Shown here one piece after another: positions 20,587 to 50,206 of a DNA stretch of 64,000 bases (within the stretch, counting starts at the first letter, position 1; each line of letters begins with the position of its first letter). The notes under the pieces are model-generated. The model was given only the letters and a program-made list of their open reading frames with translations, ran no database searches and was not told the DNA's origin. A program made the translations under genes and the position numbers. The DNA is from Hyphococcus sp. (GTDB taxonomy: Bacteria > Pseudomonadota > Alphaproteobacteria > Caulobacterales > Parvularculaceae). The stretch covers positions 30,992 through 94,991 of the forward strand of contig JAJFGE010000069.1 of the NCBI GenBank assembly GCA_021776295.1. The letters are read 5' to 3'.

Positions 20587-21374
20587 AAGGCCCCCGCGAG
20601 GAAGTCCAGCAACACCCGCTCAAAGCCGGCAAGCCAGTCATATAAAATGACCGGAGCGGCAACTGCAAAAAGCGCAAAGCCAGCAAGCGTAATCGCCGGC
20701 GCGCCGATAAACGCGGCCATCAATTGCGGCATCGCGCGGTTCGCGGCGGCGAGCGCCATGGTGTAGACAAAGCCGAGCACGATAAACGGCGAGGCGAGGG
20801 TGATCGATTTTGTCAGCGCCGCGGCAACGCGATGCGTCGTCCACTCGGCGGTGTCGCTGGCGCCCGGAAAAACCCCGAACGGAAAGACCTCATAAGCCTC
20901 GCCAAGCGCGCGGGCGAGGTGGAAATGGATGCCGGCGTTAACCGCGAGAGTGACGCCGGCCATCACCAGGATGGCGGTGAAGGGCGATTCTGAATCGAAA
21001 CCGATATTCGGGCCAAAAAGTTGGGAAAGCGATAAATGCTGAGCGATCATCGCGCCGGAGATTTGCAGCACAAAAATCATGATCCGCAACGCAAAGCCGA
21101 TCAGTAGGCCGACCAGCGCCTCGGTCGCGTATATCTCCACTATATCGGCGAGCGTTGATATCTCTGCGGCGCGCGCATCGTCATAGACCATCGGCGCCAG
21201 GACGATGGTAAAAGCAATCGCGACAGTGAGGCGCACGCGCACCGGTATGGCGCGCTCGCCAATGCCGGGTGCAAAAAATGCAATTGCCGATATGCGCATG
21301 AAGATGGCGCCAAGGGCGAATATCGCCGGCGCCGCGTCCTCGACCACGGGCGCAAAATATTCAAGCTCCATCAT
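20583..21374 (-). CDS. fliR: Flagellar export protein FliR
   Basis: Multi-TM, ARDxA-type conserved PxIGERAIPVRVRLTVAIAF; overlaps flhB start by 4 nt. Confidence 0.92.
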   Translation of the reverse strand: MMELEYFAPVVEDAAPAIFALGAIFMRISAIAFFAPGIGERAIPVRVRLTVAIAFTIVLAPMVYDDARAAEISTLADIVEIYATEALVGLLIGFALRIMIFVLQISGAMIAQHLSLSQLFGPNIGFDSESPFTAILVMAGVTLAVNAGIHFHLARALGEAYEVFPFGVFPGASDTAEWTTHRVAAALTKSITLASPFIVLGFVYTMALAAANRAMPQLMAAFIGAPAITLAGFALFAVAAPVILYDWLAGFERVLLDFLAGAL

Positions 21375-21379
21375 AGCGG

Positions 21380-24943: not shown

Positions 24944-25795
24944 CTAACCGCGCGAAAGCGCGTTGGAGAGGATCAAATTGATGGTCTGCGCGCCGCCGGT
25001 CGGCGGGGCTGACAATACGCTAAGCGCGGCCATGCCCGGGGTTGATGCGCTCGGCCCGTTGTCAATTTCCTTGCGCAGGAAGAACCGCTGCAGGGCGTTC
25101 TCAACTGCCTCAGGGTCGGAAAAAACCGATGGCGCGTTCGACCCGAAAATCGCTTCGGCTTTACGCATAAAAACATCGCGTTGCTGATCGAGATCGACAG
25201 AGCCGATCGATGCGGGCAATCCAAGCGCCGCCTCCATGACAGTGCGCACCGGTCGCTGTCCCATAATCTGCAACCATTTCACTCCGTCGGGCGATGAATT
25301 GTCTGCGATGCGCGCAATTTCTCGCCGGAAGTTCATGGCCAGGCGAATGTTGGTGTCGACTTCGCCGACGCGTTCTTCGAAGCTGCGATCTATATACTGA
25401 GTTGCGATCTCATCACGGAAGGTTGAGAGCAAAACCCGCGGTCCGGCGAAATTGCCATAGCCGAAACGGTCGGAAAAATCGCGCCAGCGCTGGTCGTTGA
25501 TGCGGTTGGCGAATGCGTCGCTATCTTCTGTGCCTTCCTCAAGGATACGCCGGATCAGGGCCTTTTTATCGATCTCATCGGACAGGCCAAAGGCGCCGAG
25601 CGCCACCGTTAGCAACCGGCGGTCGCTAACGAGGTCCGCCGCGGTCGCGGCGCCGGAAATATTTTCCTTGAAATAGTCGACATTGCGCAATGTTAAGGCG
25701 TCATTGGTAAAAACTTCTCTCTGACGCGCCTCCGTCTGGTTGAAAACGCGCCATCCGAGAAAACCGCTGAGCGGAATTGCGGGTGAAAAGCTCAT
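24944..25795 (-). CDS. DUF1217-family flagellar-cluster protein
   Basis: PLSGFLGWRVFNQTEARQREVFTNDALTLRNVDYFKENI...; RFGYGNFAGPRV. Confidence 0.82.
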   Translation of the reverse strand: MSFSPAIPLSGFLGWRVFNQTEARQREVFTNDALTLRNVDYFKENISGAATAADLVSDRRLLTVALGAFGLSDEIDKKALIRRILEEGTEDSDAFANRINDQRWRDFSDRFGYGNFAGPRVLLSTFRDEIATQYIDRSFEERVGEVDTNIRLAMNFRREIARIADNSSPDGVKWLQIMGQRPVRTVMEAALGLPASIGSVDLDQQRDVFMRKAEAIFGSNAPSVFSDPEAVENALQRFFLRKEIDNGPSASTPGMAALSVLSAPPTGGAQTINLILSNALSRG

Positions 25796-30811: not shown

Positions 30812-31342
30812 TCAGTACTCCTGAATACCGATACCGAGAATTAAAACATCCTTGGCGCCGTCGCCCAATATCGTGCGCGCGGTGTTCAGCAAGGATGATT
30901 TCGTGTTTGTCATCGCCTCCGGTTTTTCAATGATATTCGTCAAAATATCAGCGCTGCCCAGCCGCATCAATTCTGCGAGAAACGCATCGCGTAGCTTAGG
31001 CTCGAAGGTGTAAACGTCACCAGCAGTAGATGGGTCAACCTCGATGCTGATCTCTAATATCATCATCACTTGCGGCGCGCCGCTTTTGACCACCGGGACA
31101 ACAAACTGGCGCCCGAACTTCAAATAAGCAGCGTCAGCGGCGGCGGGGGCGCCATGATCGTTATTTTTGTCTTTCTTCTTCTTTTTCTTCTTCTTGTCTT
31201 TCTTACCGTGATCTTCATCGAGCGCTTCGCCGGCGGTCTCTTCACTCGCGCCGGCCGATGTCGTCTGTTTCAAGAAAAATCCACCGCCGCTGCCAAGGAC
31301 GCCGGCGATCACGACGATGATGATGGGAAGGAGTTTTTTCAT
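30812..31342 (-). CDS. FliL-like flagellar basal body-associated protein (copy 1)
   Basis: N-terminal TM, poly-Lys linker (KKDKKKKKKKKDK), VVPVVKSGAPQVMMILEISIEVDPS... Confidence 0.7.
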   Translation of the reverse strand: MKKLLPIIIVVIAGVLGSGGGFFLKQTTSAGASEETAGEALDEDHGKKDKKKKKKKKDKNNDHGAPAAADAAYLKFGRQFVVPVVKSGAPQVMMILEISIEVDPSTAGDVYTFEPKLRDAFLAELMRLGSADILTNIIEKPEAMTNTKSSLLNTARTILGDGAKDVLILGIGIQEY

Positions 31343-33394: not shown

Positions 33395-34114
33395 CTAGCG
33401 CGGCCCCATGGTTTCAACGGTCTTCGTGATCCGGTCGTGTTCTTGTTGCAGGAGCTGCTGCCCGAGTTCATAGGCGCGTTGCACTTCAATCAGTCTACTG
33501 AGTTCCACGACCGAGTTGACGTTAGAATTCTCGACAAATCCCTGGCGTAGTTGCGCGCTTTGCGCCGCCTGCGTCGGTTCGTTCGCCTTAAACAAACTGC
33601 CGCCCTCGCGCTGCAAAGCTGTTGCGGGGGCGGTCACCAGCGTCAGGCGTCCAAGCGGGACGCCGCCGCCAGCGATTGCGCCATCCGCGGCGATGGTTAC
33701 CTCGCCGGCGCCGGGAGGGATGGTTATAGGGCTTCCGCCTTCGCCGAGAACACTATAGCCCTCTGGCGTGGTGAGTTGGCCTTCACTGTTCAACATGAAA
33801 GACCCAGCGCGGGTGAGGCGGTCGCCGCGTGGTGTTTCAACGGCGAAAAACCCTTCGCCATCAATGGCGACGTCAAAGGCGCCGCCGGTTTTTGTCAGGA
33901 CGCCGCCGCTGCGATCATAAAAATGTCCGCCGACCCGCGTTTGCGACAGGCTGCGCTCAGCGGAACCGAGCGATTTGACGTACTCGGAAAACAAAACCCC
34001 CTCACGCTGAAAGCCTGTGGTGTCAGCATTGGCGATGTTGTTGGCGACGCTGGTGAGTTCCTTAGACAGCCCCGCCTGGCGCGACATGATTACATAAGAT
34101 GTGTTATTCATCAT
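33395..34114 (-). CDS. flgF: Flagellar rod protein FlgF
   Basis: YVIMSRQAGLSKELTSVANNIANADTTGFQREGVLFSEYV. Confidence 0.95.
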   Translation of the reverse strand: MMNNTSYVIMSRQAGLSKELTSVANNIANADTTGFQREGVLFSEYVKSLGSAERSLSQTRVGGHFYDRSGGVLTKTGGAFDVAIDGEGFFAVETPRGDRLTRAGSFMLNSEGQLTTPEGYSVLGEGGSPITIPPGAGEVTIAADGAIAGGGVPLGRLTLVTAPATALQREGGSLFKANEPTQAAQSAQLRQGFVENSNVNSVVELSRLIEVQRAYELGQQLLQQEHDRITKTVETMGPR

Positions 34115-36374
34115 TCATCCCCTGACGGAAGAATTCGGTTTCCCATGATACGCCGGTGATGAACGCATCGACTTTTGCGGCGTTGCGAAAGTTAAACGCC
34201 GGTGCGTTGGTGAACATGTGCTCCAGCGCGCGGGCATAAGTTTTATTGGCGCTGAGCGCCTGTTTGGCAGAAGCGGGTAATGCTTTACCGCCGGTCTTCA
34301 AGACCGTGAGCACGTAAGCGCTCGCCGTTTCTATATCCAGTTGCTCCGGCGGGAGCGAGGCGAAACTATCGGCGGCGCTGCGCCATTCTTCAGTTCGCCA
34401 TAGGAGCGTGGTTTTGTGAACATCCATTTTGTGACGTTGCAAAAATTGACGCGTCGTCTTACGCAGTAGCGCCTTATCATCAAGCTTGGCGCCGGCGCGC
34501 AAGATGACTTCGCCAAAGCCGTCATGGTCGGAATTCTTCGTTGCCAGCGCCAGCGCCGCTTCTGCATCGTCGGCGAAAAGATGGGCGTTGGCGATAATCA
34601 TATCGGCGTCGGCGCGCTGTTCGGAGGGGATTTGCGAGGTCGCGCGCGCCGCTAATTTCGGGGCGCCCATGAACGCCAACATATCGGCGATGGCGAGGCG
34701 CATTTCGTTATCGTCGGCCTCAGCGCCAAATAAATCCGTATATTGGAAATAATAATCAATCGCCGCCAAGCGTTGCGCCGGTTCATCGCTAGCCAGCGCG
34801 GTTGCGATCATCGAGCGGGCGATAAAACCGGTCGCGGGCGCTGATTGCGGAGCGATTTCCTTAACGCTGCGTAATTGCGCAAAGGCGGCGCCAATGCGTC
34901 CGGCGGCGGCTAGCGCTTTGGCGCCTGAAATTGCTGCATCGATTTCACCGCGACTGGCCTCGCTCATGAGCGCTTGTTCTGCGAGATCGTCGAAAAAACC
35001 ATCATAGGCGATGGTCGCCTTGCGCTCGAATTCTTCCGCGAGGACGCCAAGCGCACGTGAGCGATAGGGGCCAGGCGTTTGCGCGACGACGGCGAGCTTT
35101 TCCTGCGCGCGATCATCGTGAGGCGGATGGCCATCAGCATTATCATCGGGCAACACTGCGCGGAGAATGACCAGGCCTGGCGTTTCCTCGCCCTCATAGG
35201 CGGCCGCAGCGATATCATAAAGCCGCTTTGCCGCTGTCGCGTTTTCCTGCTCAAGCGCCTTTAGCGCCAGCAATTCCGCCACCGGTCCGCGCATGCTTTT
35301 CGCGAGCGTATTTAGGGTGCGGTATTGCGCGTTGGAATAGGATTTATCGCGTGACGACAGGGGCGAGGCCGCTCTTAAAAGCAGGTCGTAAATTCCGCCA
35401 CAAGCGCTGAACGGTTCAAGCTTGTCTTTCGCACCCGCGGCGTCGCTGCGGCCAAGCGCGGCCAGTCCGCCCAGCAACATAAATTCCGGATGGGCGGCTT
35501 TTTCCGGGGCGAAGGCCAGGGCTGCGGCCTCGGAGAAAAATCCGAGCCGTAAAAATCCATGACCAAGTGCAATCTCAAGCGCTGTGTGATCTTCGTCTTC
35601 GGCGTTTTCGAGGCGTTGGCGCAGTTTAACTATGTCAGCATAGGTAATGTCGCCGGCGCCCGGCGCCGTATCTGTAAAACCCGCCGGGTCGATGCAAAGA
35701 GCGCTTCCATCAACGTCGTCCAAGTCCGGCGCGGCGCTGGTCTCATGGGATGCGATGGCGACCGGCGTCACGCTGGCGCCCTCATTAGCGTAATCGGGAA
35801 CCAGATTAATGGGTTGCCCGGCTGTACGCCTGAGCGCGACGACGCCTTGGTCGTTGGCGGCGGCAAGAAGAGCGATCATGCGATCGCGCGCGGCGCGCAT
35901 TTCATCTGAGGATGGATTGCGCCGTGACGGCGTCGGCGGCGCGGCGACTGTTTTTTTACTGGGACGCACTGCCGGCTTTTGTTTTACGAGAGGCCCGGCC
36001 TGTTTGTCGACTATGTCGATAATCAAAGACTTATGTTCGCTGCGTTCAGCGCGCGCCTCGCAATCGCAGTTCAGCGTCAAGATCAGCTCATCGCCATCGG
36101 CCGTAGTCTTGCTGCTGGTATTGAGAACGCGGTGGGCTTTGCGGTTCTTGTCGACGCCTGATACATCAAGGCGCTGCGCTGCGTTTGGAAAAACCACGCG
36201 CACAATTCGGTCTTCGGTTTTTATCTCCCATGTCTCCGGCGCATTCGGAACAACAATCCGGGAGTAGCCGCCATGCTCGCCGGCACGCACCGCTAAGGGT
36301 TCGCCAGCGTCAGCCGGGGTAGGTTCTGCGGCGTTCGCCATCGCGGCGAGGGTGATAAGGGGGAGCATGATCAT
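34104..36374 (-). CDS. Large secreted helical-repeat (TPR-like) protein in flagellar cluster, function unknown
   Basis: Start trimmed to 36374 (signal MIMLPLITLAAMANAAEP); N-terminal AMIN-like beta domain, long Ala-rich helical repeats; overlaps motA and flgF. Confidence 0.8.
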   Translation of the reverse strand: MIMLPLITLAAMANAAEPTPADAGEPLAVRAGEHGGYSRIVVPNAPETWEIKTEDRIVRVVFPNAAQRLDVSGVDKNRKAHRVLNTSSKTTADGDELILTLNCDCEARAERSEHKSLIIDIVDKQAGPLVKQKPAVRPSKKTVAAPPTPSRRNPSSDEMRAARDRMIALLAAANDQGVVALRRTAGQPINLVPDYANEGASVTPVAIASHETSAAPDLDDVDGSALCIDPAGFTDTAPGAGDITYADIVKLRQRLENAEDEDHTALEIALGHGFLRLGFFSEAAALAFAPEKAAHPEFMLLGGLAALGRSDAAGAKDKLEPFSACGGIYDLLLRAASPLSSRDKSYSNAQYRTLNTLAKSMRGPVAELLALKALEQENATAAKRLYDIAAAAYEGEETPGLVILRAVLPDDNADGHPPHDDRAQEKLAVVAQTPGPYRSRALGVLAEEFERKATIAYDGFFDDLAEQALMSEASRGEIDAAISGAKALAAAGRIGAAFAQLRSVKEIAPQSAPATGFIARSMIATALASDEPAQRLAAIDYYFQYTDLFGAEADDNEMRLAIADMLAFMGAPKLAARATSQIPSEQRADADMIIANAHLFADDAEAALALATKNSDHDGFGEVILRAGAKLDDKALLRKTTRQFLQRHKMDVHKTTLLWRTEEWRSAADSFASLPPEQLDIETASAYVLTVLKTGGKALPASAKQALSANKTYARALEHMFTNAPAFNFRNAAKVDAFITGVSWETEFFRQGMNDE

Positions 36375-37327: not shown

Positions 37328-37870
37328 CTAAAGCGCTTGCGAGCGATTGGCGAGAATGATGCTGATTAAATAGGCTTTCTTGGAATCGAGTGTGGCGACC
37401 ACTTGCGCGGCTTGTTCGGCGTTCATCGCCGCCAACAGTCCGGCGGCAAATTTCGGGTCCATCTCATTGATAATGTCGCCGGCCTGCTTTGGTTTCATGC
37501 CTTCATAGATGGCGGCGAGCTTTGCGATATCGGCGTTTTGCGTCGCGCGGTGCTCGTCCATCGTCGCGCGCAAATTATCATTGACGCCTTCCAGCTCGCT
37601 GAGGCGTTTTTCAATTTGCGCGTCATAGACGGCAAGCTTGGCTTTGCGTTTTGCGAGCGCGGTTTCTTCTGCATCAAGCGCAAAGTTACGCGCACGCACT
37701 GCCTCGGCGAGGTCGCCGTCAACGCAACGCTGTGGCTCGACTGCATCCGCCGTCTCTATAGGGGCGGCTTCGGTTGCAGCATCAGCGATTTCAGACGCCA
37801 AGACGGCTAAACGGCCAAGAAAAGAGCCCGCAAAAATAATCGCGAGAACAATGAGGGCGCGGTTTTTCAT
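37328..37870 (-). CDS. MotE-like / MgtE-N-type flagellar protein
   Basis: LAAIYEGMKPKQAGDIINEMDPKFAAGLLAAMNAEQAAQVVATLDSKKAYLISIILANR. Confidence 0.8.
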   Translation of the reverse strand: MKNRALIVLAIIFAGSFLGRLAVLASEIADAATEAAPIETADAVEPQRCVDGDLAEAVRARNFALDAEETALAKRKAKLAVYDAQIEKRLSELEGVNDNLRATMDEHRATQNADIAKLAAIYEGMKPKQAGDIINEMDPKFAAGLLAAMNAEQAAQVVATLDSKKAYLISIILANRSQAL

Positions 37871-37873
37871 GAC

Positions 37874-38461
37874 TTATCCCGCGCTCTGCCTGGCGGCGTT
37901 CCATGCGCCTGCCGCGCCTGCGGCGCTTCGTGCTGGGCTCGGCCTGGGCGTTGCTGTTGAAGCGGGCGCTTTTGCTGGATCGATGAATTCAACCCGGTCA
38001 GCCTCGGTGGAAGGGTCTGCATTCGGCGCCGATGCTGCTTTGTCGTCTTCTGCCGCAGCAACGGCGTTGTTATTATCTGTTTCTGGCGTAGCTTGGATAC
38101 GCCCGACACTGTCGAGGCAAGCCGCGATCTCTTTGGTCGCCGCCAGCGCCGCCTCGTTGATATTGCTAATGGTGGTGTCGGCAGTATCGCCGATGGACTC
38201 CGCCAGCGCTGCGAGCTTGGGCAAAAATTCCCGCGTTTCCGCCACCAGCGGGGCCAGCTCGTTGACGCTCTCGGCGCTGCTTTGTTTGGCTTGCGCAACA
38301 GCGGCTTGCGCCTGCTCCACCGCCGCCGCCATTGAGGCGATAGTTGCGCCCAATCCCTTTTCGGTATCTTTAAGCCGTTGCAGTTTGCGGTTGAGAACAA
38401 AGCAATAAACGGTCGCTGAACCGGATGCGGATAGCAACATAAAATCAAAGATCATTTCCAT
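37874..38461 (-). CDS. DUF6468-like membrane-anchored coiled-coil protein
   Basis: N-terminal TM, LNRKLQRLKDTEKGLGATIASMAAAVEQAQ; syntenic between MotE-like and FliL. Confidence 0.6.
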   Translation of the reverse strand: MEMIFDFMLLSASGSATVYCFVLNRKLQRLKDTEKGLGATIASMAAAVEQAQAAVAQAKQSSAESVNELAPLVAETREFLPKLAALAESIGDTADTTISNINEAALAATKEIAACLDSVGRIQATPETDNNNAVAAAEDDKAASAPNADPSTEADRVEFIDPAKAPASTATPRPSPARSAAGAAGAWNAARQSAG

Positions 38462-38470
38462 GACGGCGCC

Positions 38471-39094
38471 TCAGGTTAAAACGAATTCGGTGATTAAAAT
38501 CTGGTCAATGATGACGCCGGGGGCGACGGCGCCGATACGCCGGCGGATTTGCGCACGCAGGCGCGACATCGCCGCCGGGTCTTCAAACTCATCGCTGTTG
38601 ACGGAACGAAGATAGGTGTTGAGCACATCCTTGATATGATAGGTGCGCGATAACAGCGCGTCGGCCTGCTCGCTTGGCGTTTCGATGATGAGGGCGAGCT
38701 TGAGATGGCGCCGCGCGCCCATGGGCCGTATGGAAATAACCATCGGGTCGAGCACTAAAAACGCCGCCTCGCCATGAAATTCTATTTTACCGCCCTGCAT
38801 TGCAGAACTATCCGCGGTCTGTTTTTTGCCATGCTTGGTTTCTTTTTTAGGCTTGTGGCCTGACGGTCTGGCTTCGGCGTGTTTCTTCTCGTTGCTATCA
38901 TGGCTTGCATCTTCCTCAGTAATTTCAGCGCCGGGTTTAGCGCCCGGCGCCAGAAAAAATACCGCCGCCGCCGCGCCGCCCGCAACGATCAGCGCCACAA
39001 AGGCAATCAGAATAATACCAACGCCCTTTTTCTTTTTGCCCTCGCCGTCTTGTTCGGTTTCTTCACAAGCGGGGTCGTTTTCAGCTTCAGCCAT
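38471..39094 (-). CDS. fliL: Flagellar basal body-associated protein FliL (copy 2)
   Basis: KKKGVGIILIAFVALIVAGGAAAAVFFL...FLVLDPMVISIRPMGARRHLKLALIIETPSEQADALLSRTYHIKDVLNTYLRS. Confidence 0.92.
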   Translation of the reverse strand: MAEAENDPACEETEQDGEGKKKKGVGIILIAFVALIVAGGAAAAVFFLAPGAKPGAEITEEDASHDSNEKKHAEARPSGHKPKKETKHGKKQTADSSAMQGGKIEFHGEAAFLVLDPMVISIRPMGARRHLKLALIIETPSEQADALLSRTYHIKDVLNTYLRSVNSDEFEDPAAMSRLRAQIRRRIGAVAPGVIIDQILITEFVLT

Positions 39095-39227: not shown

Positions 39228-40736
39228 ATGTCAAACCTGGCGGCGAACTGGAACCAGTTGTCGATGCAGAAAAAGCTGGTTCTTACCGGTGTTATGCTGG
39301 CGACGTTGGCGGCGTTCTGGATGCTGATGAATGTCGCGTCCAGGCCGCATATGGCTTTTCTCTATGGCGGGCTGGACCCGTCGGCTGCGGGCGAAATTTT
39401 AAGTGTACTGGAATCGATGGATGTTGCATCTGACGTGCGCGGCGATGCGATTTATGTACCGCAGCCCAAACGCGATGAAGTGCGTATGGCGCTTGCACGC
39501 CAGGGCTTGCCGCAACAGGGCCAGGCGGGTTTTGAACTGCTCGACGAGATGAACGGTTTTGCGGTGACGTCGGATATGTTTGACGCTACCTATTGGCGCG
39601 CCAAGGAGGGCGAGCTGGCGCGGACAATTTTGGCGACGCCGGGCGTAAAAGCGGCGCGGGTGCATATCGCTGCACCCAAGATATCGTCGTTTTCGCGCCA
39701 CCGCCGTGAGCCCAGCGCATCGGTGACGATCACTATGAGCCGCGGGCGGATGGACCGTCAGCACGCCGTCGCCATTCGTTATCTGGTAGCGCTGGGCGTT
39801 CCTGATCTCGACCCGGAAAAGGTCGCGATTATCGATTCCCTTAATGGCGTCATTTTAAAGCCCGGAAGCCAGAACGCGCTGGAGGAAATGGAGACCAGCG
39901 ATAATGATCGCGCGCGCAAGATGGAGCGGGCGCTTGTCAACATGCTCGAAGCTCATGTCGGCCCCGACAATGTGCGGGTGAACATATCGCTGAAGGTTGA
40001 CCGCGAGCGCGAGACCGTCTCGGAGCGAATACTGGACCCGGCAAGCCGGGTGATGATGGCGCGCGAGACCACCGAGGTCCAACAATCCGATAGCGGCTCT
40101 GGCAATGCGGTGACAGTCGCCAGTAATTTGCCCGATGGCGACGCAGCCGCTGAACCATCGGGTTCAAAGTCTGAACGCAGCGAGGCGAACCAGACCACCC
40201 GGTTTGATATTTCCGAAGTTAACCGCAAGCGCGAAAAAATGCCCGGCGCCATTGCGCAAGTTCATGTCGCGGTTTTAATCAACGAAACTGACCCAACGCC
40301 GCGCAGCGACGAAGAGCTGAGTGCGCTGGGCGCTCTCGTTGCTACAGCCATCGGGTTTGATGACGCGCGCGGCGATAAGGTCACCGTGAAAGCGATGTCA
40401 TTTCACCAGGAGGAGGTGATTGTGGAGGATCCGGTCACCGGCGGCGTTATGGCGTTTCTTCAGGATAATCTGATCTCGATGTTGCAGATTTTTATTCCGG
40501 CGGTTGTCGTCCTGGCGCTGGCGATGTTTGTGTTGAAGCCAATCCTCACCCAAGGCCCGGCGGCGCAGAGCGCTGGCCAAGTCGCGGCGCCAGATATCGC
40601 CGGCGCTATTGAGCCGCCGGCGGCCAACGCGGAAGCAAAAACTCCAGTGGATGCTTTGCAAGACCTCGCCAGCGCAGACACCGGCGCCACCGCCACGGTT
40701 CTGACATCGTGGCTCGATGAAACCGAGGCGGCGTGA
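39228..40736 (+). CDS. fliF: Flagellar MS-ring protein FliF
   Basis: YGGLDPSAAGEILSVLESM...RAKEGELARTILATPGVKAARVHIA. Confidence 0.96.
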   Translation: MSNLAANWNQLSMQKKLVLTGVMLATLAAFWMLMNVASRPHMAFLYGGLDPSAAGEILSVLESMDVASDVRGDAIYVPQPKRDEVRMALARQGLPQQGQAGFELLDEMNGFAVTSDMFDATYWRAKEGELARTILATPGVKAARVHIAAPKISSFSRHRREPSASVTITMSRGRMDRQHAVAIRYLVALGVPDLDPEKVAIIDSLNGVILKPGSQNALEEMETSDNDRARKMERALVNMLEAHVGPDNVRVNISLKVDRERETVSERILDPASRVMMARETTEVQQSDSGSGNAVTVASNLPDGDAAAEPSGSKSERSEANQTTRFDISEVNRKREKMPGAIAQVHVAVLINETDPTPRSDEELSALGALVATAIGFDDARGDKVTVKAMSFHQEEVIVEDPVTGGVMAFLQDNLISMLQIFIPAVVVLALAMFVLKPILTQGPAAQSAGQVAAPDIAGAIEPPAANAEAKTPVDALQDLASADTGATATVLTSWLDETEAA

Positions 40737-40789
40737 TGGCGGGATTTGGTTCGGTGATTTCCAACATTCATTCGGGAGCTAAAAAATGA
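40736..40789 (+). CDS. 17-aa micro-ORF bridging fliF and fliN (MAGFGSVISNIHSGAKK)
   Basis: TGATG overlap with the fliF stop and AATGA overlap with the fliN start. Confidence 0.3.
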   Translation: MAGFGSVISNIHSGAKK

Positions 40790-41124
40790 GCGAAGAAACC
40801 CAAGACGCGGCGCCAGAACTCAGCGCGGACAAAGAAGATGTCGCCCCGACGGAGAAAGTGATGGGTCCAAGCGATATGCGCAATCCGAAAGTCATGTCCC
40901 TGCCGGTGCGCATTATGGTGTCGGTCGGCAAGGCGGAGATGACAGTTGAGCAATTGCTGAACCTGACATCTGAGGCGGTGATTGATCTCGACGCGCAAAT
41001 TGACGACCCGGCGGAAATTTTCGTTGGCGACAGATTGGTGGCGCGCGGCGAGCTTGTTGAATCCGGCAGCAAGGACGGCGCCATCGCCATTCGCCTGGTG
41101 GAAGTTTGCGACGCTGCGGCTTGA
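40786..41124 (+). CDS. fliN: Flagellar motor switch protein FliN
   Basis: LPVRIMVSVGKAEMTVEQLLNLTSEAVIDLDAQIDDPAEIFVGDRLVARGELV. Confidence 0.95.
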   Translation: MSEETQDAAPELSADKEDVAPTEKVMGPSDMRNPKVMSLPVRIMVSVGKAEMTVEQLLNLTSEAVIDLDAQIDDPAEIFVGDRLVARGELVESGSKDGAIAIRLVEVCDAAA

Positions 41125-41129
41125 ATGGG

Positions 41130-41894
41130 ATGACGCCCTTGCGCAAGATATGCAGAATTTTATGGATTGCCGCCGCTTTGGTGATGATCACCGGCGCTAG
41201 CGCTGCCGCACAGGAAACCGCCGCGCCGCTTTTCGATACGTTTCAGAGCGGGCCGGAGGGCGGCGGCCTGACGGCGCGCATCATTCAGATATTCATCCTC
41301 GTCACCGTGCTCAGCCTGGCGCCGGGCATTGCGATGATGGTCACCTGCCTGCCATTTATGATCATTGTTCTGTCGATCCTGCGCCAGGGGGTCGGGCTAC
41401 AGCAGGCGCCGCCGAACATGCTGATTGTCAGTGTGGCAATGTTTTTAACGTATTTTGTCATGGAGCCGGTATTTAAAGATGCCTGGAGCGCCGGCGTCCA
41501 GCCGCTTTTAAACGGTGAGATTTCACAAAGCCTGGCGTTTGAAAACACCATGACGCCATTTCGGAATTTTATGGAATCGCGGGTCGATGATGAGGCTTTG
41601 TTTATCCTCAGTGACGCCAAGGGCGATGTGGCGTTAAAGCCTGGCGAGGCGCCGCCTCTGTCGCTTCTGGCGCCGGCGTTTGTGCTTTCGGAAATTCAAC
41701 GCGCTTTTGAAATCGGATTTGCAGTGTTATTGCCGTTTTTGATCATCGATCTTCTCGTGGCGTCCATATTAATGGCGATGGGGATGATGATGGTGCCGCC
41801 GGCGATTGTCTCGTTACCTTTTAAAGTGGCGTTTTTTGTTCTCACCAATGGATGGGTCGCCGTTTCTGGCGCGCTGGTGAGAGGATATTCCTGA
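41130..41894 (+). CDS. fliP: Flagellar export protein FliP
   Basis: LAPGIAMMVTCLPFMIIVLSILRQGVGLQQAPPNMLIVSVAMFLTYFVMEP. Confidence 0.94.
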   Translation: MTPLRKICRILWIAAALVMITGASAAAQETAAPLFDTFQSGPEGGGLTARIIQIFILVTVLSLAPGIAMMVTCLPFMIIVLSILRQGVGLQQAPPNMLIVSVAMFLTYFVMEPVFKDAWSAGVQPLLNGEISQSLAFENTMTPFRNFMESRVDDEALFILSDAKGDVALKPGEAPPLSLLAPAFVLSEIQRAFEIGFAVLLPFLIIDLLVASILMAMGMMMVPPAIVSLPFKVAFFVLTNGWVAVSGALVRGYS

Positions 41895-42958
41895 TGGCGG
41901 ACCGTAAAGTCGAAAACCTGCCGGTGCTGGCCAATGAAGTGTGGGTCACCAAGGCGCACAAGGCGGCGGTAATTCTTGCATCGCTCAGTGCGGAGACGGC
42001 CAAAGCGATTGTCAACGACATCAGCGACGCGCATTTACGCGCCTTCGCCAAAGCGTTCAGTGAGTTGAAGTCAGTGCCGCCGCACTTGCTTGAGGCGATC
42101 GCCAATGAGTTTGTCGAAGAGGTGCAAGATAGCGGCGCGTCTTTTGCTGGCGGCATAGAAGAGGCGCGCCGGGTTCTCGGCGCCTTAACCGAAGAAGACC
42201 GCATCAACCGGGTTTTATCGGAGCTTGCCGGTGGCGGTACGGGTTCGGTGTGGACGCGCATCAACGATATCGACGACAAGATGCTGGCCGACTATGTGCA
42301 AACCCAGCGCCTTTCGGTTGCAGCAGCCATCGTCACTAAACTTTCGTTTCAGAAAACCGCCGATGTTCTGGCCTATGCCGAGCCGGCGTTCTCGCAGAAA
42401 GTGTTGCTTGAACTGGCGCGGCGCTCGCCGCCGGGTAATGCAGTGTTAAACGCGATTGCCGATGCGATTAATGAGGAGTTGCTGGCGCCGCTTGCCGCCA
42501 AGCCGTCAACGTCAAACGCCGGGGCGACGGTTGGCGAGATTATCAACTGCCTACCGGCGGCCAAGCGCGATGCGTTTATGGGCCATCTCTGCGATGTTGA
42601 TCCGGAAATTGGCGAGGCTGTGAAAAAAGCCATATTGCTGTTCGAGGATTTGCATCAGCGCCTGCCAGAATCAGGCGTGCCAATAATCATGCGCGAGCTG
42701 GACCGCGATGTGTTGCTGGCGGCGTTGAAATATGGCGCGAGCAATGCGGTCGAAACGGTAGAATTTCTGTTCGCCAATATCTCCAAACGCATGGCCAGTC
42801 AGTATCGTGAAGATATTGAAGAGCTGGAAGAGCTAACCGATACAGACGGTGAGAAGGCGCAGCGCGCCTTTACCTCCGCGGTGCGACGACTGGTCTCGGC
42901 TGGAGAGATTAAGCTGAACGCGGTTGTCGAGGAGGCTGACGAGGCGGAGGTTGAGTAG
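41894..42958 (+). CDS. fliG: Flagellar motor switch protein FliG
   Basis: KAAVILASLSAETAKAIVNDISDAHLRAFAKAF...DVLAYAEPAFSQKVLLELARR; start trimmed to 41894. Confidence 0.9.
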   Translation: MADRKVENLPVLANEVWVTKAHKAAVILASLSAETAKAIVNDISDAHLRAFAKAFSELKSVPPHLLEAIANEFVEEVQDSGASFAGGIEEARRVLGALTEEDRINRVLSELAGGGTGSVWTRINDIDDKMLADYVQTQRLSVAAAIVTKLSFQKTADVLAYAEPAFSQKVLLELARRSPPGNAVLNAIADAINEELLAPLAAKPSTSNAGATVGEIINCLPAAKRDAFMGHLCDVDPEIGEAVKKAILLFEDLHQRLPESGVPIIMRELDRDVLLAALKYGASNAVETVEFLFANISKRMASQYREDIEELEELTDTDGEKAQRAFTSAVRRLVSAGEIKLNAVVEEADEAEVE

Positions 42959-43250: not shown

Positions 43251-44363
43251 TTATATAACCACCAGCTCAGCATGCAGCGCGCCGGCGGCTTTTACGGATT
43301 TTAAGATGTCGATCAACTCGCGCGGGCCGACGCCCAGCGCGTTCAGCCCCTCTATGAGGTCGGAGAGGGAAACGCTTTCATCGACAATGGCAATCCGGCG
43401 TTCGTCATTTTGATCGATGGTGATGGTTGTGTCGGGCAGGGTGATGGTCTCGCCATTGCGTGAGAACGGATTGGGCTGTGAGACTACCGGTGTTTCGCGC
43501 ACGGTGATGGTGAGATTGCCCTGTGTGACGGCAAAGCGTGAGATTTGCACATCCGCGCCGAGGACGACGGTGCCGGATTTCTGGTCGATGACAATACGCG
43601 CCTTTTGTTCCGGCGCGATGCGGATATTTTCCACCTTGCCGAGTAGATACACCGCCCGCATCGGCGCATCAGCGATGTTTAGCTCCACTGTGCCGGGATC
43701 GAGCATGTGGGCTATCGGTTTTTCAAAGGATTTGTTGATCGCGGTTTCAATCCGCGCCGCTGTGGTGAAGTCCGGCGCACGTAGGGCAAGGCGCACGGTT
43801 TTCATGCTCGCAAAGTCAAATGCGATTTCGCGTTCGACCCGCGCGCCTTGAGGAACTGTGCCGGAGGTTGGCGAGCCGAAAGTGACCTCGGCTCCGGCGC
43901 CATCGGCGCTGAAGCCGCTGGCCAGAACCGGGCCTTGCGCGACTGCATAAATCTGGCCGTCGCCGGCATTGAGCGGCGTCATGATAAGTGTGCCGCCAAG
44001 CAGGTTGGTTGCATCACCAATCGCGGACACGGTAACGTCAATTTGCGAGCCGGCGCGGGCATAGGGCGGCAAGGTTGCGGTGACGATCACGGCGGCGACA
44101 TTGCGTGGACGAAATCTTTCACCCTGAACATTAATGCCGAGGCGCTCAAGGAGGCTTGACAGAGCCTCTTCCGTATAGGGTGAATTGCGCACGCTGTCAC
44201 CGGCGCCATCAAGGCCGACAATCAAGCCATAGCCAACTAAGTCGTTGCCGCGCACGCCTTCGATATTGACCACGTCTTTGATACGCACATCGGCTGCGGC
44301 AAATGGTGTTGCGCAAAATGACAGGACGAGTGAGGCGGCGAGCAGTCGGTGAAATTTTTTCAT
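43251..44363 (-). CDS. flgI: Flagellar P-ring protein FlgI
   Basis: VRIKDVVNIEGVRGNDLVGYGLIVGLDGAGDSVRN; start trimmed to 44363. Confidence 0.96.
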   Translation of the reverse strand: MKKFHRLLAASLVLSFCATPFAAADVRIKDVVNIEGVRGNDLVGYGLIVGLDGAGDSVRNSPYTEEALSSLLERLGINVQGERFRPRNVAAVIVTATLPPYARAGSQIDVTVSAIGDATNLLGGTLIMTPLNAGDGQIYAVAQGPVLASGFSADGAGAEVTFGSPTSGTVPQGARVEREIAFDFASMKTVRLALRAPDFTTAARIETAINKSFEKPIAHMLDPGTVELNIADAPMRAVYLLGKVENIRIAPEQKARIVIDQKSGTVVLGADVQISRFAVTQGNLTITVRETPVVSQPNPFSRNGETITLPDTTITIDQNDERRIAIVDESVSLSDLIEGLNALGVGPRELIDILKSVKAAGALHAELVVI

Positions 44364-44367
44364 AAAC

Positions 44368-45369
44368 CTAACGCAGGAAATTAACCAGAGAGAGCCGGCC
44401 GATGCGGGCGGTGAGGGTGAAAGACGATTGCAGCTGTGACTCAAGCTGTTGCAATTCGAGCGCGGCTTCAAACGGATCGCGCGTGGTGCGTTCGTTGAAT
44501 ACGGACGCAAGCGCTGCGGATTCTGCATCAAGGCTGGCGAGGGCGGTTTGCATGCGTTCCTCAACGACGCCGATACGCGCACCAATTTGCGTCAAGCGCC
44601 CCTCCGCCTCAATCAGGCCAATCGCGCCTGTATTTAGTGTGGCAGCACGGTCGAGCGATGGGCCGGCGGCGGCTGCGACGACAATGGTTGCAAGGCCGCG
44701 CAGTATATCCTTGACTGGCTGCTCGTCGGCTTTGGCGCTGTAGTCGATCAGCTCACCGTCGGAAATTTCAACGCGTGCGGCATTGCCGGCGCCGCCTAAA
44801 TAGATGTTGGTGGCAAAGCCGCCGGTCGGGTCGTTGAAATAGGTATCGAGATCGTTTTGAAACTGCGCAGGAGTTGCCGCGCCTGAATATAACGCGCTGA
44901 TATCGGCAATCAGCGTTTGCGCATCGGCCAGCGATGCGCTGTCAACGGCGTCGCCGGAGAACAGTGCGCGGCCTTCAAAGCGTTGGTTAAAGCTCGACAT
45001 AACCGCACTAAGTTCAGCCTTGGCCGCTGTGGCGGTTGTCTCGATGCTCGCTTGATCGGCGCGCCCGACCGCGTCGAGGAGTGTGGCGCCTATGCCATTG
45101 GCGCCTTCGGCGGCGCGCTGCAACACTGTCTGTGCGGCGCCGGCGCGGCCAAGCGCGCGCGCGGTGGCGCCCCGGAAGAAGCTGACATCGTCAAACGCTT
45201 TACGCAAAAGGTGTAAGTCGCCCGATGTTGCGTCGCCGGCGGATTTTAGCGCCGGGTCGCGCCCGGTAACCAGCTCTACGCGGAGCACTTCACTGCGTTC
45301 TTTGATGTCGGTGATGGCGGTGCTGAGCCGTGTGAATTGAAGAATGGAGGGAAACCCGGAGACGTTCAT
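44368..45369 (-). CDS. flgL: Flagellar hook-associated protein FlgL / flagellin-like
   Basis: Adjacent to flgK; TDIKERSEVLRVELVTGRDPAL..., C-terminal LQQLESQLQSSFTLTARIGRLSLVNFLR. Confidence 0.85.
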   Translation of the reverse strand: MNVSGFPSILQFTRLSTAITDIKERSEVLRVELVTGRDPALKSAGDATSGDLHLLRKAFDDVSFFRGATARALGRAGAAQTVLQRAAEGANGIGATLLDAVGRADQASIETTATAAKAELSAVMSSFNQRFEGRALFSGDAVDSASLADAQTLIADISALYSGAATPAQFQNDLDTYFNDPTGGFATNIYLGGAGNAARVEISDGELIDYSAKADEQPVKDILRGLATIVVAAAAGPSLDRAATLNTGAIGLIEAEGRLTQIGARIGVVEERMQTALASLDAESAALASVFNERTTRDPFEAALELQQLESQLQSSFTLTARIGRLSLVNFLR

Positions 45370-45371
45370 GG

Positions 45372-46841
45372 CTAGATCTCCATCAACCGTTGCAGCATCC
45401 GGTCAATCGTTTGAATGACCCGGGCATTGGCTGCATAGGCCTGCTCAATAGTGATGAGGTTTTGCAATTCGCGGTCGGTATCGACGCCGGTTTCGAGTTT
45501 TTCAGATTCCACCAGACTAACCGCCAGGGTTTGCGCGCCTGTGGCGCGTGCGACGGCGGCGGCGCGGCCGGCGCCGGCGAGGGATGTGAGTTGGGCTGCC
45601 GCCTCTGAGGCGTTGACATCGCGGGAGGTCTGGAGCGCGGGATCGACGGGGCGGTCGGTATTCATAACGTCAATCAGAGCACGGACAAAAACATCGGAGC
45701 CCGCAGCAGCAGACGCCGCAGCGCCAAGACCATCGCGCAGGCGTGACGCCAGGCCGCCATTGGCGGGGTCAACAGCGGCGTTGATATCAATGCGCCCGGC
45801 AAGACCGGTGAGCGTCGCCGGGTTCACTAGCGCGCCGGCGTCGGTAAACAATCCGGGCGCGCCGGGCACCAGCGTCGGGTCAAGACCGGGCCCGGAAAAC
45901 CGTTCCGCCAAATCGAGCGCCACGGCGTCAAGCGCTAACGAGGCCTCAGGAACCAGCCTGTCGCGGACGTCAAACAGACCCGCCATTGCGCCTTCGCGCA
46001 CCGCCAGTGTCGCCGTGCCGCCGGGGGTGATGTCGTCGCCATCCACCGACAATCCGGACAAGGCGCCGGCGCCATTATTATACGCGCTTTGCGGCGTCAT
46101 TACCGGCGCCGGCGTGAACTCGACCGTGCGCGCCGTTCCGACAAGCAGAAAAACGCCTTCCTGGGTCATCAAATCAATCTTGCCATTGTCACGCTGTAAT
46201 TCGCGCACCGGAATGCTTTCATTGATACGGTCGATCACCAGCTGGCGCTGGTCCAGCAGTGCAGAAACATCACCGCCCGTGGCGCCGCTGCGGCTGATGG
46301 CGGTGTTGAGGCGTTCGACCTCCTGCAAGTCGGTGTTGACTGCATCGACCCGGCGTGAAATTTCAGCGTCGGCATTGGCGCGGATATTCTGGAATTCATT
46401 GGCTATCCGATTAAGGCCGGATGCGAGGTCTTTGGCCGCATTCACCGTCGTTAGCTGCGCCGCGCCGCTGTCGGGCGTATCGGCGAGCGTCCTGAGCGTG
46501 GTTTCAAGTTTTGCAAAGCGCTGAAACAACGCGTTGGGATCATCGGGACCGCCGAGCAAATCGCCGATCCTGGTAAAGGCGTTGGCGCGCGCATCACTGG
46601 CGGCAAATTCTGCATCCGCGCCGCGCCGCTCGAAGGTGACCGCCGGGTTGGTCGACCGGGCAATGCCAGCCACCGCAACGCCGGCGCCGGCGCCGCCAGC
46701 GGCGCGTTCAACGATCGTAACATCACGGCGGTTGAACCCGTCGGTGAGCGCATTGGCGATATTGTTGGACGTAACCCCGGCGCGCCGCGAAGATACGGCG
46801 AGCGCAGAGGTTGCGTTTGCAAGCGCTTGCGAAAGGGACAT
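45372..46841 (-). CDS. flgK: Flagellar hook-associated protein FlgK
   Basis: SLSQALANATSALAVSSRRAGVTSNNIANALTDGFNRRDV; C-terminal NLITIEQAYAANARVIQTIDRMLQRLMEI. Confidence 0.94.
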   Translation of the reverse strand: MSLSQALANATSALAVSSRRAGVTSNNIANALTDGFNRRDVTIVERAAGGAGAGVAVAGIARSTNPAVTFERRGADAEFAASDARANAFTRIGDLLGGPDDPNALFQRFAKLETTLRTLADTPDSGAAQLTTVNAAKDLASGLNRIANEFQNIRANADAEISRRVDAVNTDLQEVERLNTAISRSGATGGDVSALLDQRQLVIDRINESIPVRELQRDNGKIDLMTQEGVFLLVGTARTVEFTPAPVMTPQSAYNNGAGALSGLSVDGDDITPGGTATLAVREGAMAGLFDVRDRLVPEASLALDAVALDLAERFSGPGLDPTLVPGAPGLFTDAGALVNPATLTGLAGRIDINAAVDPANGGLASRLRDGLGAAASAAAGSDVFVRALIDVMNTDRPVDPALQTSRDVNASEAAAQLTSLAGAGRAAAVARATGAQTLAVSLVESEKLETGVDTDRELQNLITIEQAYAANARVIQTIDRMLQRLMEI

Positions 46842-46898
46842 AGGCGCGCCTCCGTATTGTTATGCGCTTAGCGCGATCGCGTCAGGCTCGAAAACTCT

Positions 46899-48203
46899 CT
46901 AGCGGATGATGTCGGTGGTCTCCTGCAAGATTTCGTCGACCGTCTGAATGATTTTCGCGTTTGAGGAATATGCCCGCTGGGTCTGAATGAGGTCAGTAAG
47001 CTCATTGGCGATGTCGGTGGTCGATTCTGTCAGTGAAAAGCCGATGGTCGTGCCGACCGGCCCGTCGCCGGCATCCCAAAGAAAGAAGTCGCCGCTTTCC
47101 TGCGATACGGAAAAGGCCTGATTGCCCTCGGCGTTAAGGCCTTTAAAGTTCGGCACGTTGGCGATCGGGATCTGATAAATCGTGCGGCGGAAACCGGTAT
47201 CGAAAATCGCTTGTAAAAAACCGCTTTCGTCGATTTCCAAACTATTGAGATTGCCAATCGGCGCGCCATCTTTGGAAATGGCGAGTGGTGCAAAGCTTGC
47301 TGACAGTTGCGTCAATGGCGAGGTTTGCCCGGCTGTACCGACCACAATATCGATCGCACCGCTGGCCGCTGCAATGGAAACCGCGCCGGTGCCGGCATTA
47401 TAGGTCGCCCCGCCGGCGGCTGTGACGGTGGCGACCGAGCCGCCGCCGGTTGCGCTGGCGTCAAAGGTGACGTTGAACGTGCCGACCGGAACCGCCGGAT
47501 TGCCGGCATTGTCGAATATCTCGACGTTCCATTCGTTGCTTGAACCGGTTGCGGGAACCACTGGCGTGAACACCATATTGAGCGTTTGCGAGCGGCCAAG
47601 AGAGTCGAAATATTCAATCGGCAGGTTGAGCGGGGCGCCGCTGGCGCCATTCTGGGTTTCAGACGCCGGCAAATTCAAGCCAAGCTGGATGTTGCTGGTC
47701 GGCGAGGCGGCAAACTGGTTGAGATTAACCCGTACAGGCTCAAGCCCGGCGACGCTGTCGCGCGGTTGTGCGCCGACATTGCCGGCGGTGTCGGCCGGCC
47801 AGCCGAGCAAATGCAGACCGCTCAGCGTGCGCAAGAAGCCGTTATCATCGGTTGAAAATGACCCCGTCGTGGTCAGCATCATTGGCCGGTCGCTGGCCGC
47901 CGTTGATAATCCGCTTACGTCGGTTACCGGCAACATGCCGCGTCCGCTGATTGAAATATCTGTTGCATTTGAAGTTGTAATCAGCGCGCCCTGCGCGCCA
48001 GCCTCGCGAAAGGTGATCGCCCGCACGCCACCGGCGGCGAAATTGCCACGGGTTTGCGCCAGCACCATATCGGCAAACTCCGTATCGGCGCGCTTATAGC
48101 CAAAGGTCTGAGAATTGGCGATATTATTTGAAATAGTACCGAGTTTGGTGGCGTTGACAGACAACCCCATAACCCCGGCGTTCAATGATGACGATAGACC
48201 CAT
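46899..48203 (-). CDS. flgE: Flagellar hook protein FlgE
   Basis: GVMGLSVNATKLGTISNNIANSQTFGYKRADTEFADMV; C-terminal TDLIQTQRAYSSNAKIIQTVDEILQETTDIIR. Confidence 0.96.
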   Translation of the reverse strand: MGLSSSLNAGVMGLSVNATKLGTISNNIANSQTFGYKRADTEFADMVLAQTRGNFAAGGVRAITFREAGAQGALITTSNATDISISGRGMLPVTDVSGLSTAASDRPMMLTTTGSFSTDDNGFLRTLSGLHLLGWPADTAGNVGAQPRDSVAGLEPVRVNLNQFAASPTSNIQLGLNLPASETQNGASGAPLNLPIEYFDSLGRSQTLNMVFTPVVPATGSSNEWNVEIFDNAGNPAVPVGTFNVTFDASATGGGSVATVTAAGGATYNAGTGAVSIAAASGAIDIVVGTAGQTSPLTQLSASFAPLAISKDGAPIGNLNSLEIDESGFLQAIFDTGFRRTIYQIPIANVPNFKGLNAEGNQAFSVSQESGDFFLWDAGDGPVGTTIGFSLTESTTDIANELTDLIQTQRAYSSNAKIIQTVDEILQETTDIIR

Positions 48204-48298: not shown

Positions 48299-49117
48299 CT
48301 ATTGCGTCAGTAAGGTGATCGCGATGCGCCGGTTTTGAGGCGCATAAGCGTCCGTCGATATAGGTTCTTTGTCGGCTTTGCCGGTGACTTCAGCGATTTG
48401 GGTTTTGGGAATACCGCTCTTGATCAACAGTCGGCGCGCGGCAAGGGCGCGGTCGGCCGAAAGCTCCCAGTTGGAATAATTTTCAGTATTGGCAAAATTA
48501 TGCGCGTCGGTATGGCCGACAATCGCCATATTGTTGCTGACGGTTGCCAGCACCGGCGCGATGACCGAAAGCAGATCGTGGAGAAGGGATGATGGCGTCG
48601 ATGAGCCGGCATTATATAACGGCGCGCCATCACCATCGACCAGTTCAATGACCAGCCCGTCCGGCGTCATCCGGGTTTGAATGTGTTTGGCGAGGGCTTC
48701 ATTCATCGCCTCGATTTTTTGATTGTTTATCGCGTCTTCTATGGCGCGTAGTTTATTGGCTTGCGCGTCTTTCGATTTGTCGGCGTCAAATTTCTGGGTT
48801 TTGGGATATTGCGTCGTGGCGCCGGCGCCGTCATTGATGAGCGTATCTTCGGACAATACTGATGAGCCATTCAATGCGCCCTGACCGCCGCCAGAGACAT
48901 TGGCGATCGGGATGGAGGGGTTGAAATAGTCGGCCAGGCCCTTGCGCTGGTCTTCTGTGGTGGCGTTCAACAGCCACATCAACAGGAAGAACGCCATCAT
49001 TGCAGTGACAAAATCCGCATAAGCGACTTTCCAGGCGCCGCCATGATGGCCGCCCCCTGCCGCTTTGCGCTTCTTCTTGACAATAATGATCGGCGCGCCG
49101 GATTTTGGATCGGCCAT
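48299..49117 (-). CDS. motB: Flagellar motor stator protein MotB
   Basis: HHGGAWKVAYADFVTAMMAFFLLMWLLNATTEDQRKGLADYFNPS; OmpA-like AIVGHTDAHNF; start trimmed to 49117. Confidence 0.95.
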   Translation of the reverse strand: MADPKSGAPIIIVKKKRKAAGGGHHGGAWKVAYADFVTAMMAFFLLMWLLNATTEDQRKGLADYFNPSIPIANVSGGGQGALNGSSVLSEDTLINDGAGATTQYPKTQKFDADKSKDAQANKLRAIEDAINNQKIEAMNEALAKHIQTRMTPDGLVIELVDGDGAPLYNAGSSTPSSLLHDLLSVIAPVLATVSNNMAIVGHTDAHNFANTENYSNWELSADRALAARRLLIKSGIPKTQIAEVTGKADKEPISTDAYAPQNRRIAITLLTQ

Positions 49118-49131
49118 AGATGACTTCGCTG

Positions 49132-49148
49132 CTGGCTTAGCCCTTGCT
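49132..49148 (+). promoter_or_regulatory. Candidate sigma-54 promoter for the FliM-like gene
   Basis: CTGGCTTAGCCCTTGCT: GG-N10-GC with TTGC; directed toward ATG 49232. Confidence 0.35.
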
Positions 49149-49231
49149 GGTAGCAAAATAATCTTTCCGCAACTTTTACGCGCTTATAACACTTGCGACA
49201 ATTATAAGTAGAGTTTGTGATCATCTGATCT

Positions 49232-50206
49232 ATGGCCAAAGTTGACGGAACAATTTTGCGGCGCAAAACCAAACGCCGCAGCGCGGGCGATGGCGACGCC
49301 GCCCATCTTGAACAGGTTGCCGAAGCCCTGGCTAAAGAAGTCGCGGCGGTTTTCTCTGTTGCGTTGGACGCAAAAATTGAGGCTCGCTGCCGGGCGCCAC
49401 AGACCGACATGTTCGGTGAAATATTGCAGGTGCTAGATAAGGTGCTGACACCTTATCAATATAGTTTTCCCTCTGGCGATGAAGTGATCATCTATCTCGA
49501 TCCGGAAGCGGTGGCTTTGGCGGTGCGGTGGTCGCTTGACGGCGTTGTCGTTGAGACGGGGGAGGGCGCCGGTGAAAATGAATCTGACGACGCCTCGCCA
49601 GAAGTTGTGTTGGAGACGTCAGATGAAACCGATGCGCCTGCGGACAAAAAAATCTCCATCACCGACCGGCGCCTGGCGAAGCTGCTTGCGGAAAAATTAG
49701 CGACAGGCGCCTTTGGCGCTAATGAGCGTCATGGGTTGTTCGCCAATATCGCGGCGCTGGCGTTTGAGACACTGGCTGAGAATGGCGAGCAGCTGGATAT
49801 TGGAGAGCCGGATAACATTGCGCATAATTTTATGTTCGATTTGAACTTGCGCAAGGGCGGCCCGCTGGGTTCTATCGGTTTTGTCGCTGCGGCGAGCCTT
49901 CTTCGCCCGCCGCAGCAAGAAGACGCCAGCGCTAAGGCGGCAGCGCAAGAGGCCTGGGCGTTAAACTTGCGTGAGCAAGTGTTGCGCTTGCCGATTGCGA
50001 TGAATGTCTGTCTTGCTGGCGAGACGCTGGATGTAGAGACTATTGGCGGCTTTGCGGTTGGTCAGACCGTTCCGCTGAAAGGCGCATCGTTGTCGGTCTC
50101 AGCGCTGGTTCCCGCTGCGCGGCGGATGGGTGCGCCGTTCACAACCGGCGCGGTTGGCGCATGCAATGGCGCCCGGACATTTGAGGCGGCGCCCACAGGC
50201 AGTTGA
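49232..50206 (+). CDS. Divergent FliM-like switch protein (C-terminal SpoA-like domain)
   Basis: C-terminal VLRLPIAMNVCLAGETLDVETIGGFAVGQTVPLKG... SpoA-like; next to motB; no other FliM in window. Confidence 0.55.
   Translation: MAKVDGTILRRKTKRRSAGDGDAAHLEQVAEALAKEVAAVFSVALDAKIEARCRAPQTDMFGEILQVLDKVLTPYQYSFPSGDEVIIYLDPEAVALAVRWSLDGVVVETGEGAGENESDDASPEVVLETSDETDAPADKKISITDRRLAKLLAEKLATGAFGANERHGLFANIAALAFETLAENGEQLDIGEPDNIAHNFMFDLNLRKGGPLGSIGFVAAASLLRPPQQEDASAKAAAQEAWALNLREQVLRLPIAMNVCLAGETLDVETIGGFAVGQTVPLKGASLSVSALVPAARRMGAPFTTGAVGACNGARTFEAAPTGS

Follow-up and report, generated by a model that had tools for sequence, protein, structure and literature searches.

The window, a stretch of 64,000 nucleotides from a Hyphococcus sp. 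contig, carries a flagellar gene cluster in the order fliF-N-P-G / flgI-L-K-E-motB | fliM. The last of these genes, hereafter called fliM-A (49232..50206, forward strand), encodes a divergent FliM of 324 amino acids. On the same strand lie fliF (39228..40736, named from sequence and synteny), fliN (40786..41124; PF01052, 3.6e-17), fliP (41106..41894; PF00813, 1e-65) and fliG (41852..42958; PF01706, 4e-23; PF14842, 6e-16; PF14841, 4e-9). A reverse-strand operon of flgI, flgL, flgK and flgE (43251..48203; FlgI identified by its match, the other names from sequence and synteny) leads to motB (48299..49156, reverse strand; PF13677, 1e-20; PF00691, 1e-11), and its FlgI shares 64% identity with the FlgI of the Paroceanicella fla cluster. 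fliM-A diverges from motB and is no longer next to fliL (38471..39094, reverse strand; PF03748, 5.7e-12), as a sequence-only reading of this DNA had described. A second FliL-like gene with a weak PF03748 match is found in the same cluster at 30815-31342. That reading had also called the cluster nearly complete, which overstated its content: no fliH was found between fliF and fliN (40737-40785 in the window; also L028 and L029), and no fliI was seen in the window. The fliH gap coincides with the clade whose FliM carries an acidic insertion, and other relatives with this cluster type keep a gene of about 200 codons at that position. CtrA-type sites (TTAA-N7-TTAA) were not above chance, and none adjoined fliM-A.

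The gene order is that of fla1-type clusters: motB-flgEKLI / fliF-(H)-N-P, fliL-CP2-CP3-motA-CP4 and flagellin-flaF-flbT-CP1, with fliH absent. It shares motB-flgE-K-L-I / fliF-(H)-N-P and fliL-CP2-CP3-motA-CP4 with the Rhodobacterales fla1-type cluster (Tomasch et al. 2025, PMC12363192), from which it differs in having fliG and fliM inside the cluster, in lacking fliH and in its Parvularculaceae host. Proteins in the CP1-4 positions of this Parvularculaceae cluster are encoded at 24947-25795, 37331-38448 and 34107-36374 of the window. CP1-4 have been reported as exclusive to the fla1-type clusters of Rhodobacterales (PMC12363192); this exclusivity looks wrong on the evidence of position and family, by which CP1 (DUF1217), CP3 (MotE/MgtE_N-like), CP2 and CP4 were assigned here, rather than by sequence comparison with P. 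inhibens. The Rhodobacterales CP1 was considered as the missing FliM and rejected, the CP1 position (fliC-flaF-flbT-CP1) being that of a DUF1217 protein. DUF1217 and DUF6468 genes also occur in Azospirillum (L152:7864-8655 and 20881-22265).

Contig C107 of the same genome (L067, G000:C107:1-17401) carries a further flagellar cluster, a paralogue of the first and here called type B, with fliG, fliP, fliN, fliH, fliF, fliL, motA, flgF/G/A/H, flgD and flagellin genes. No type B FliM was found in this genome, an absence that is uninformative since the cluster runs into the contig end right after fliG. In relatives, a second divergent FliM (type B) is encoded beside the motB of cluster B. The cluster that holds fliM-A (cluster A) shares its motB|fliM neighbourhood with cluster B and with Rhodobacterales, and its gene order, plus a fliH-like gene, recurs on a Rhodobacterales plasmid and in cluster B of the genus. 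fliM lies between fliL and the DUF6468 gene in Azospirillum and, in a relative, G021, in the cluster other than its FliM-A one; fla1-type clusters no longer have it at that place. The fliL-fliM-DUF6468-MotE-like order is ancestral, and was kept in these two cases. G021 (L071, L072; G021:C10) encodes a canonical FliM, with a DISDILGF variant of the CheY motif and the fliL-fliM order, in addition to a divergent FliM-A cluster.

The fliM-A reading frame is intact and its product begins MAKVDGTILRRKTKRRSAGDG. The LSQ-EIDALL tail of other FliMs, noted as missing in the sequence-only reading, is indeed absent. A stop codon is found two codons before the ATG (TGA TCT ATG), and with the ATG one codon past this stop a missed N-terminal EIDALL extension or an annotation error is excluded. 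Six-frame translations of the window, the second flagellar contig and the che locus contained no EIDALL-like peptide; together, the upstream stop and the six-frame scan rule out a wrong start or a frameshift masking the motif. The gene is under purifying selection, with dN/dS values of 0.12-0.24 over five homologues from five species, all with intact frames. The window comes from a metagenome-assembled genome of Marinicaulis (Parvularculaceae), with relatives under the names Marinicaulis or Parvularculaceae. Within the genus, close homologues (n=4) are 78-90% identical and distant ones (n=8) are 20-25% identical in alignment; a cultured relative, Marinicaulis flavus SY-3-19, also has this FliM (locus L033).

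Profile searches place fliM-A far from the canonical families. A Pfam search gave no match up to E=1, the SpoA domain included, and TIGR01397 matched residues 232-284 at 13.9 bits (E=0.023) against a cut-off of 219.6, so that the C-terminal SpoA-like domain previously described as clear is in fact below threshold in this protein. These cut-offs, like that of PF02154, are limits of the detection models and not functional features; the Paroceanicella FliM also lies under the TIGR01397 cut-off, at 105.9 bits. No match was obtained with phmmer against PDB sequences or with tblastn against plasmids. The divergent SpoA (FliMN_C) domain is nevertheless assigned to 49916..50203 (forward strand) from the TIGR01397 match and from the same region in distant members, where PF01052 is passed by four of the five homologues tested. 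Structural prediction with AlphaFold gave a model of low confidence (pLDDT 55, built from 12 sequences, falling below 50 over much of the SpoA part), and contacts are therefore not readable from it. As a fold, however, the model was informative: all 25 Foldseek matches in the PDB at E<=0.001 were FliM, FliY or CheC-type folds, the best being the FliM 8wo5 at 2.1e-12, and isolated FliM middle domains superposed with TM scores of 0.72-0.79 of target. The structure prediction proposed as a check on FliM identity thus returned FliM as its best match. A chain of homology leads to the same family. The A1 profile aligned by hhalign over the full length of FliM-B (95.5%), which passes PF01052 at 2.4e-9, and also with the Paroceanicella FliM (87%), which passes PF02154 at 2.5e-19. 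The CheC-like middle domain and the SpoA domain that define a FliM are accordingly present in fliM-A by Foldseek and the homology chain, where the direct Pfam search was negative.

A canonical fliM elsewhere in the genome was the finding that the earlier reading had named as contradicting it. No PF02154 protein was detected in this assembly (85.5% complete) by a search that was positive in four control genomes, and no canonical FliM was detected in five relatives with the fliM-A type that are 98-100% complete (G003, G004, G016, G022 and G025). In G004, a single-contig genome, the only two SpoA-domain matches are FliN and FliM-A. The protein is thus the sole FliM-like component of a flagellar cluster with FliG and FliN. 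The statement that it is the only FliM candidate stands for its own cluster; it is not necessarily the only divergent FliM of the genome, given the second cluster on contig C107. We consider the FliM identity of fliM-A to be firm and computationally established on the basis of fold, synteny and the family chain, and put the probability that it serves a fla1-type alphaproteobacterial flagellum as its functional FliM at about 0.85.

Two other identities were weighed against this one. The gene could be a degenerating or dispensable paralogue in a decaying cluster A, the working flagellum being made by the type B cluster. The presence of that second cluster, the loss of fliH from cluster A and a protein that falls under every family threshold are all compatible with decay, yet the selection and intact frames seen in five species, the conserved order of an otherwise intact cluster A and the fact that G004 has no other FliM candidate make it improbable. 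Still less credible is an identity as a CheY phosphatase of the CheC/FliY kind, or as a SctQ of type III secretion, in place of a C-ring FliM. The Foldseek matches do include CheC and FliY, which have the same fold, and the SpoA domain is common to SctQ. FliM structures nonetheless outscored CheC (2e-12 to 1e-6 versus 2e-6 to 5e-4), the surrounding cluster is that of a flagellum and not of an injectisome, it has FliG and FliN with no other FliM, and the Paroceanicella gene at the same place passes PF02154.

Taken as a FliM, the protein resembles the canonical proteins of E. coli and Salmonella (TIGR01397, PF02154 plus PF01052) in the succession of a CheC-like middle domain and a SpoA domain and in being clustered with FliG and FliN. 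It differs in its scores under the family cut-offs, in its location away from fliL, in the lost LSQ-EIDALL tail and in an acidic insertion found in place of the GG(D/P)G loop. The tail is replaced by a short basic motif region, MAKVDGTILRRKTKRR (49232..49291, forward strand). An EIDxLL-like motif was present in 28 of 30 canonical alphaproteobacterial FliMs versus none of 55 divergent ones, and the pattern [ILVMAT][LIM].[RKQ][KM] was found in 41 of 54 divergent N-termini against 2.0 after shuffling, in a count that is anchored on the alignment and in which a few genomes were entered twice. The remaining divergent N-termini are mostly near variants, for example IVARKI and PLQRKM. This LxRK segment aligns with the helix leading into the middle domain of canonical FliM, and fliM-A in effect begins just past the CheY-binding tail that other FliMs have. 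Coupling to CheY by the N-terminal route is likely altered.

The acidic insertion, also described in the sequence-only reading, occupies approximately residues 104-141 (49541..49654, forward strand), carries a net charge of -10 and takes the position of the canonical GG loop, as judged from alignments and from the model, in which a low-confidence loop (101-141) joins helices 91-103 and 143-161. It is restricted to the five closest sequences, that of the window included, and is missing in the eight distant homologues; at 68% pairwise identity with indels, versus 92% for residues 1-20, it is less well conserved than any other part of the protein. By these alignments it is a clade-specific addition.

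FliM is known to contact FliG by its GXXG loop, which meets the EHPQR loop of FliG (PMC7355467), and in Vibrio most EHPQR point mutants are immotile (PMC6290876). In fliM-A the GG(x)G loop is absent, with LDGVVV and the acidic insertion in its place, in a divergent and indel-rich region of the alignment. The FliG of the window reads QRLS at the EHPQ position (QTQRLSVAAA). Among related FliMs (R-type, described below), the absence of EHPQ from FliG, as expected for FliMs without GG, was predicted from cluster A before the R-type FliGs were retrieved. Read by eye from a FliM-FliG table with profile-selected FliG frames, GG-bearing FliMs were paired with a PQ-bearing FliG motif (EHPQ, EYPQ, QKPQ or QNPQ) in eight of eight cases, and both GG loop and EHPQ were lost in 4 A-type and 25 R-type pairs. 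PQ was present in none of the 25 R-type FliGs, which have EST-E and similar sequences at the motif site. G539, with EHPQ and no GG, is a clear exception to this pairing, and G531 (EHAQ) is a loose fit. A FliG tree groups A with B as sisters (100/97) and places R in a separate, long-stemmed clade that is sister to an EHPQ-bearing FliG, a placement by which the paired loss would have occurred at least twice independently, although this amounts to only about two events. Since the GG loop and EHPQ were lost together, a rewired FliM-FliG contact in this C-ring is a good inference. The altered coupling and different C-ring proposed earlier are partly upheld, by the replaced GG loop, a FliG without EHPQ and the loss of the standard CheY tail, but as traits of a class and not as an isolated oddity.

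FliMs related to fliM-A were found in Parvularculaceae and in one further family, probably Rhodobacteraceae, where 102 of the 121 genomes sampled have one. All of them lack EIDALL, and most begin with a conserved "[I/V/T]LxRK". On these comparisons fliM-A is one branch of a widespread, poorly described alphaproteobacterial FliM class. The nearest likeness in locus is the FliM/FliN family switch protein of Paroceanicella profunda plasmid pD4M1D (WP_138578674.1), which is encoded beside motB in the same type of cluster. Its branch (including G447, G454 and G513) shares the (V/L)xRKI-like N-terminus and the lack of EIDALL; unlike fliM-A, it retains the GG loop and the FliG EHPQ and passes PF02154, and the Paroceanicella gene heads a che operon, followed by genes for a STAS protein, cheY, cheA, cheW, a receptor, cheR, cheD and cheB. 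The R-type proteins come from the Rhodobacteraceae-like family f27 (family name inferred), whose clusters match the Rhodobacterales fla1 type. Like fliM-A they have the N-terminal LxRK and no EIDALL and have lost both the GG loop and the FliG EHPQ, and the two tested gave no match to PF02154. They differ in that most carry a C-terminal acidic tail, of up to >100 residues, and in that, in the genomes examined, their genes lie apart from the flagellar cluster; in three f27 genomes no fliM was seen beside flgI-motB, the R-type genes being located elsewhere. They possibly belong to the class of FliM2 of R. sphaeroides, a protein that the title of del Campo et al. 2007 mentions. Neither the fla1-type gene list nor a transposon screen of Rhodobacterales names a fliM (PMC12363192). 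The R-type class may explain this omission, as the two tested proteins miss the PF02154 cut-off and the genes lie outside the cluster where examined.

The che operon in the genome of the window is an ordinary one, with cheA, cheW, cheR, cheY, cheB and cheD (named from sequence, with CheW domains by Pfam). No CheW-domain protein was found in G004, G005, G016, G022, G025 or G027, which have a FliM-A free of the insertion and no canonical FliM, and G003, also insertion-free, has only an atypical CheW set. Some members of the genus apparently have a motor that runs without CheA and CheW, which fits the loss of the CheY tail. These and other Marinicaulis-genus genomes, with flagellar clusters and no CheW-domain protein detected, are possibly motile without chemotaxis.

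One refinement of the FliM explanation, which would not change the identity of the protein, is that the CheY-docking peptide has moved: to the acidic insertion, with its core E-V-V-L between acidic residues, in the Marinicaulis clade and to a C-tail EI[DST]xL in the Rhodobacteraceae-type FliMs. EI[DST]xL was found in 5 of 29 R-type C-tails against 0.09 after shuffling, always within 26 residues of the C-terminus, but these tails are acidic and of low complexity and four of the five cases look mutually related. CheW was present in three of the five genomes with an insertion-bearing FliM and in none of six insertion-free, FliM-A-only genomes (G003 and G021 set aside), an association that is not significant (10/165, p ~0.06, by hand) and in which the five genomes represent one clade. 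With no EIDxL in the acidic insertion itself, we regard such a relocation as rather unlikely. DLPxL was also observed in nine R-type C-tails (L121-L150, n=29 tails) versus 0.46 expected after shuffling.

For fliM-A as the FliM of its own flagellum, the protein would form the middle tier of the C-ring, hold FliN through its SpoA domain and hold FliG by a rewired middle-domain contact in which the GG-loop/EHPQ pair is replaced on both sides. With the CheY-binding tail absent, CheY, where present, would have to act by another route, such as another FliM surface, FliN or the acidic loop; alternatively the motor may not be switched by CheY at all. The wider proposal, which we advance tentatively, is of a class of alphaproteobacterial motors whose FliM-FliG hinge does without GG-loop/EHPQR, a contact that both partners would have given up in two or more independent lineages, and whose CheY input has either moved to acidic peptides (a mid-domain insertion or a C-tail) or been dropped. 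For annotation, an N-terminal LxRK without EIDALL offers a simple signature of the divergent FliM class. Accounts of motor assembly and switching place the GXXG-EHPQR joint and the EIDALL tail of FliM at their centre. Lineages that lack both joint and tail, with FliM and FliG changed to match, would be natural double mutants, and would permit a direct test of whether torque and switching depend on the joint or whether it is one solution among several.
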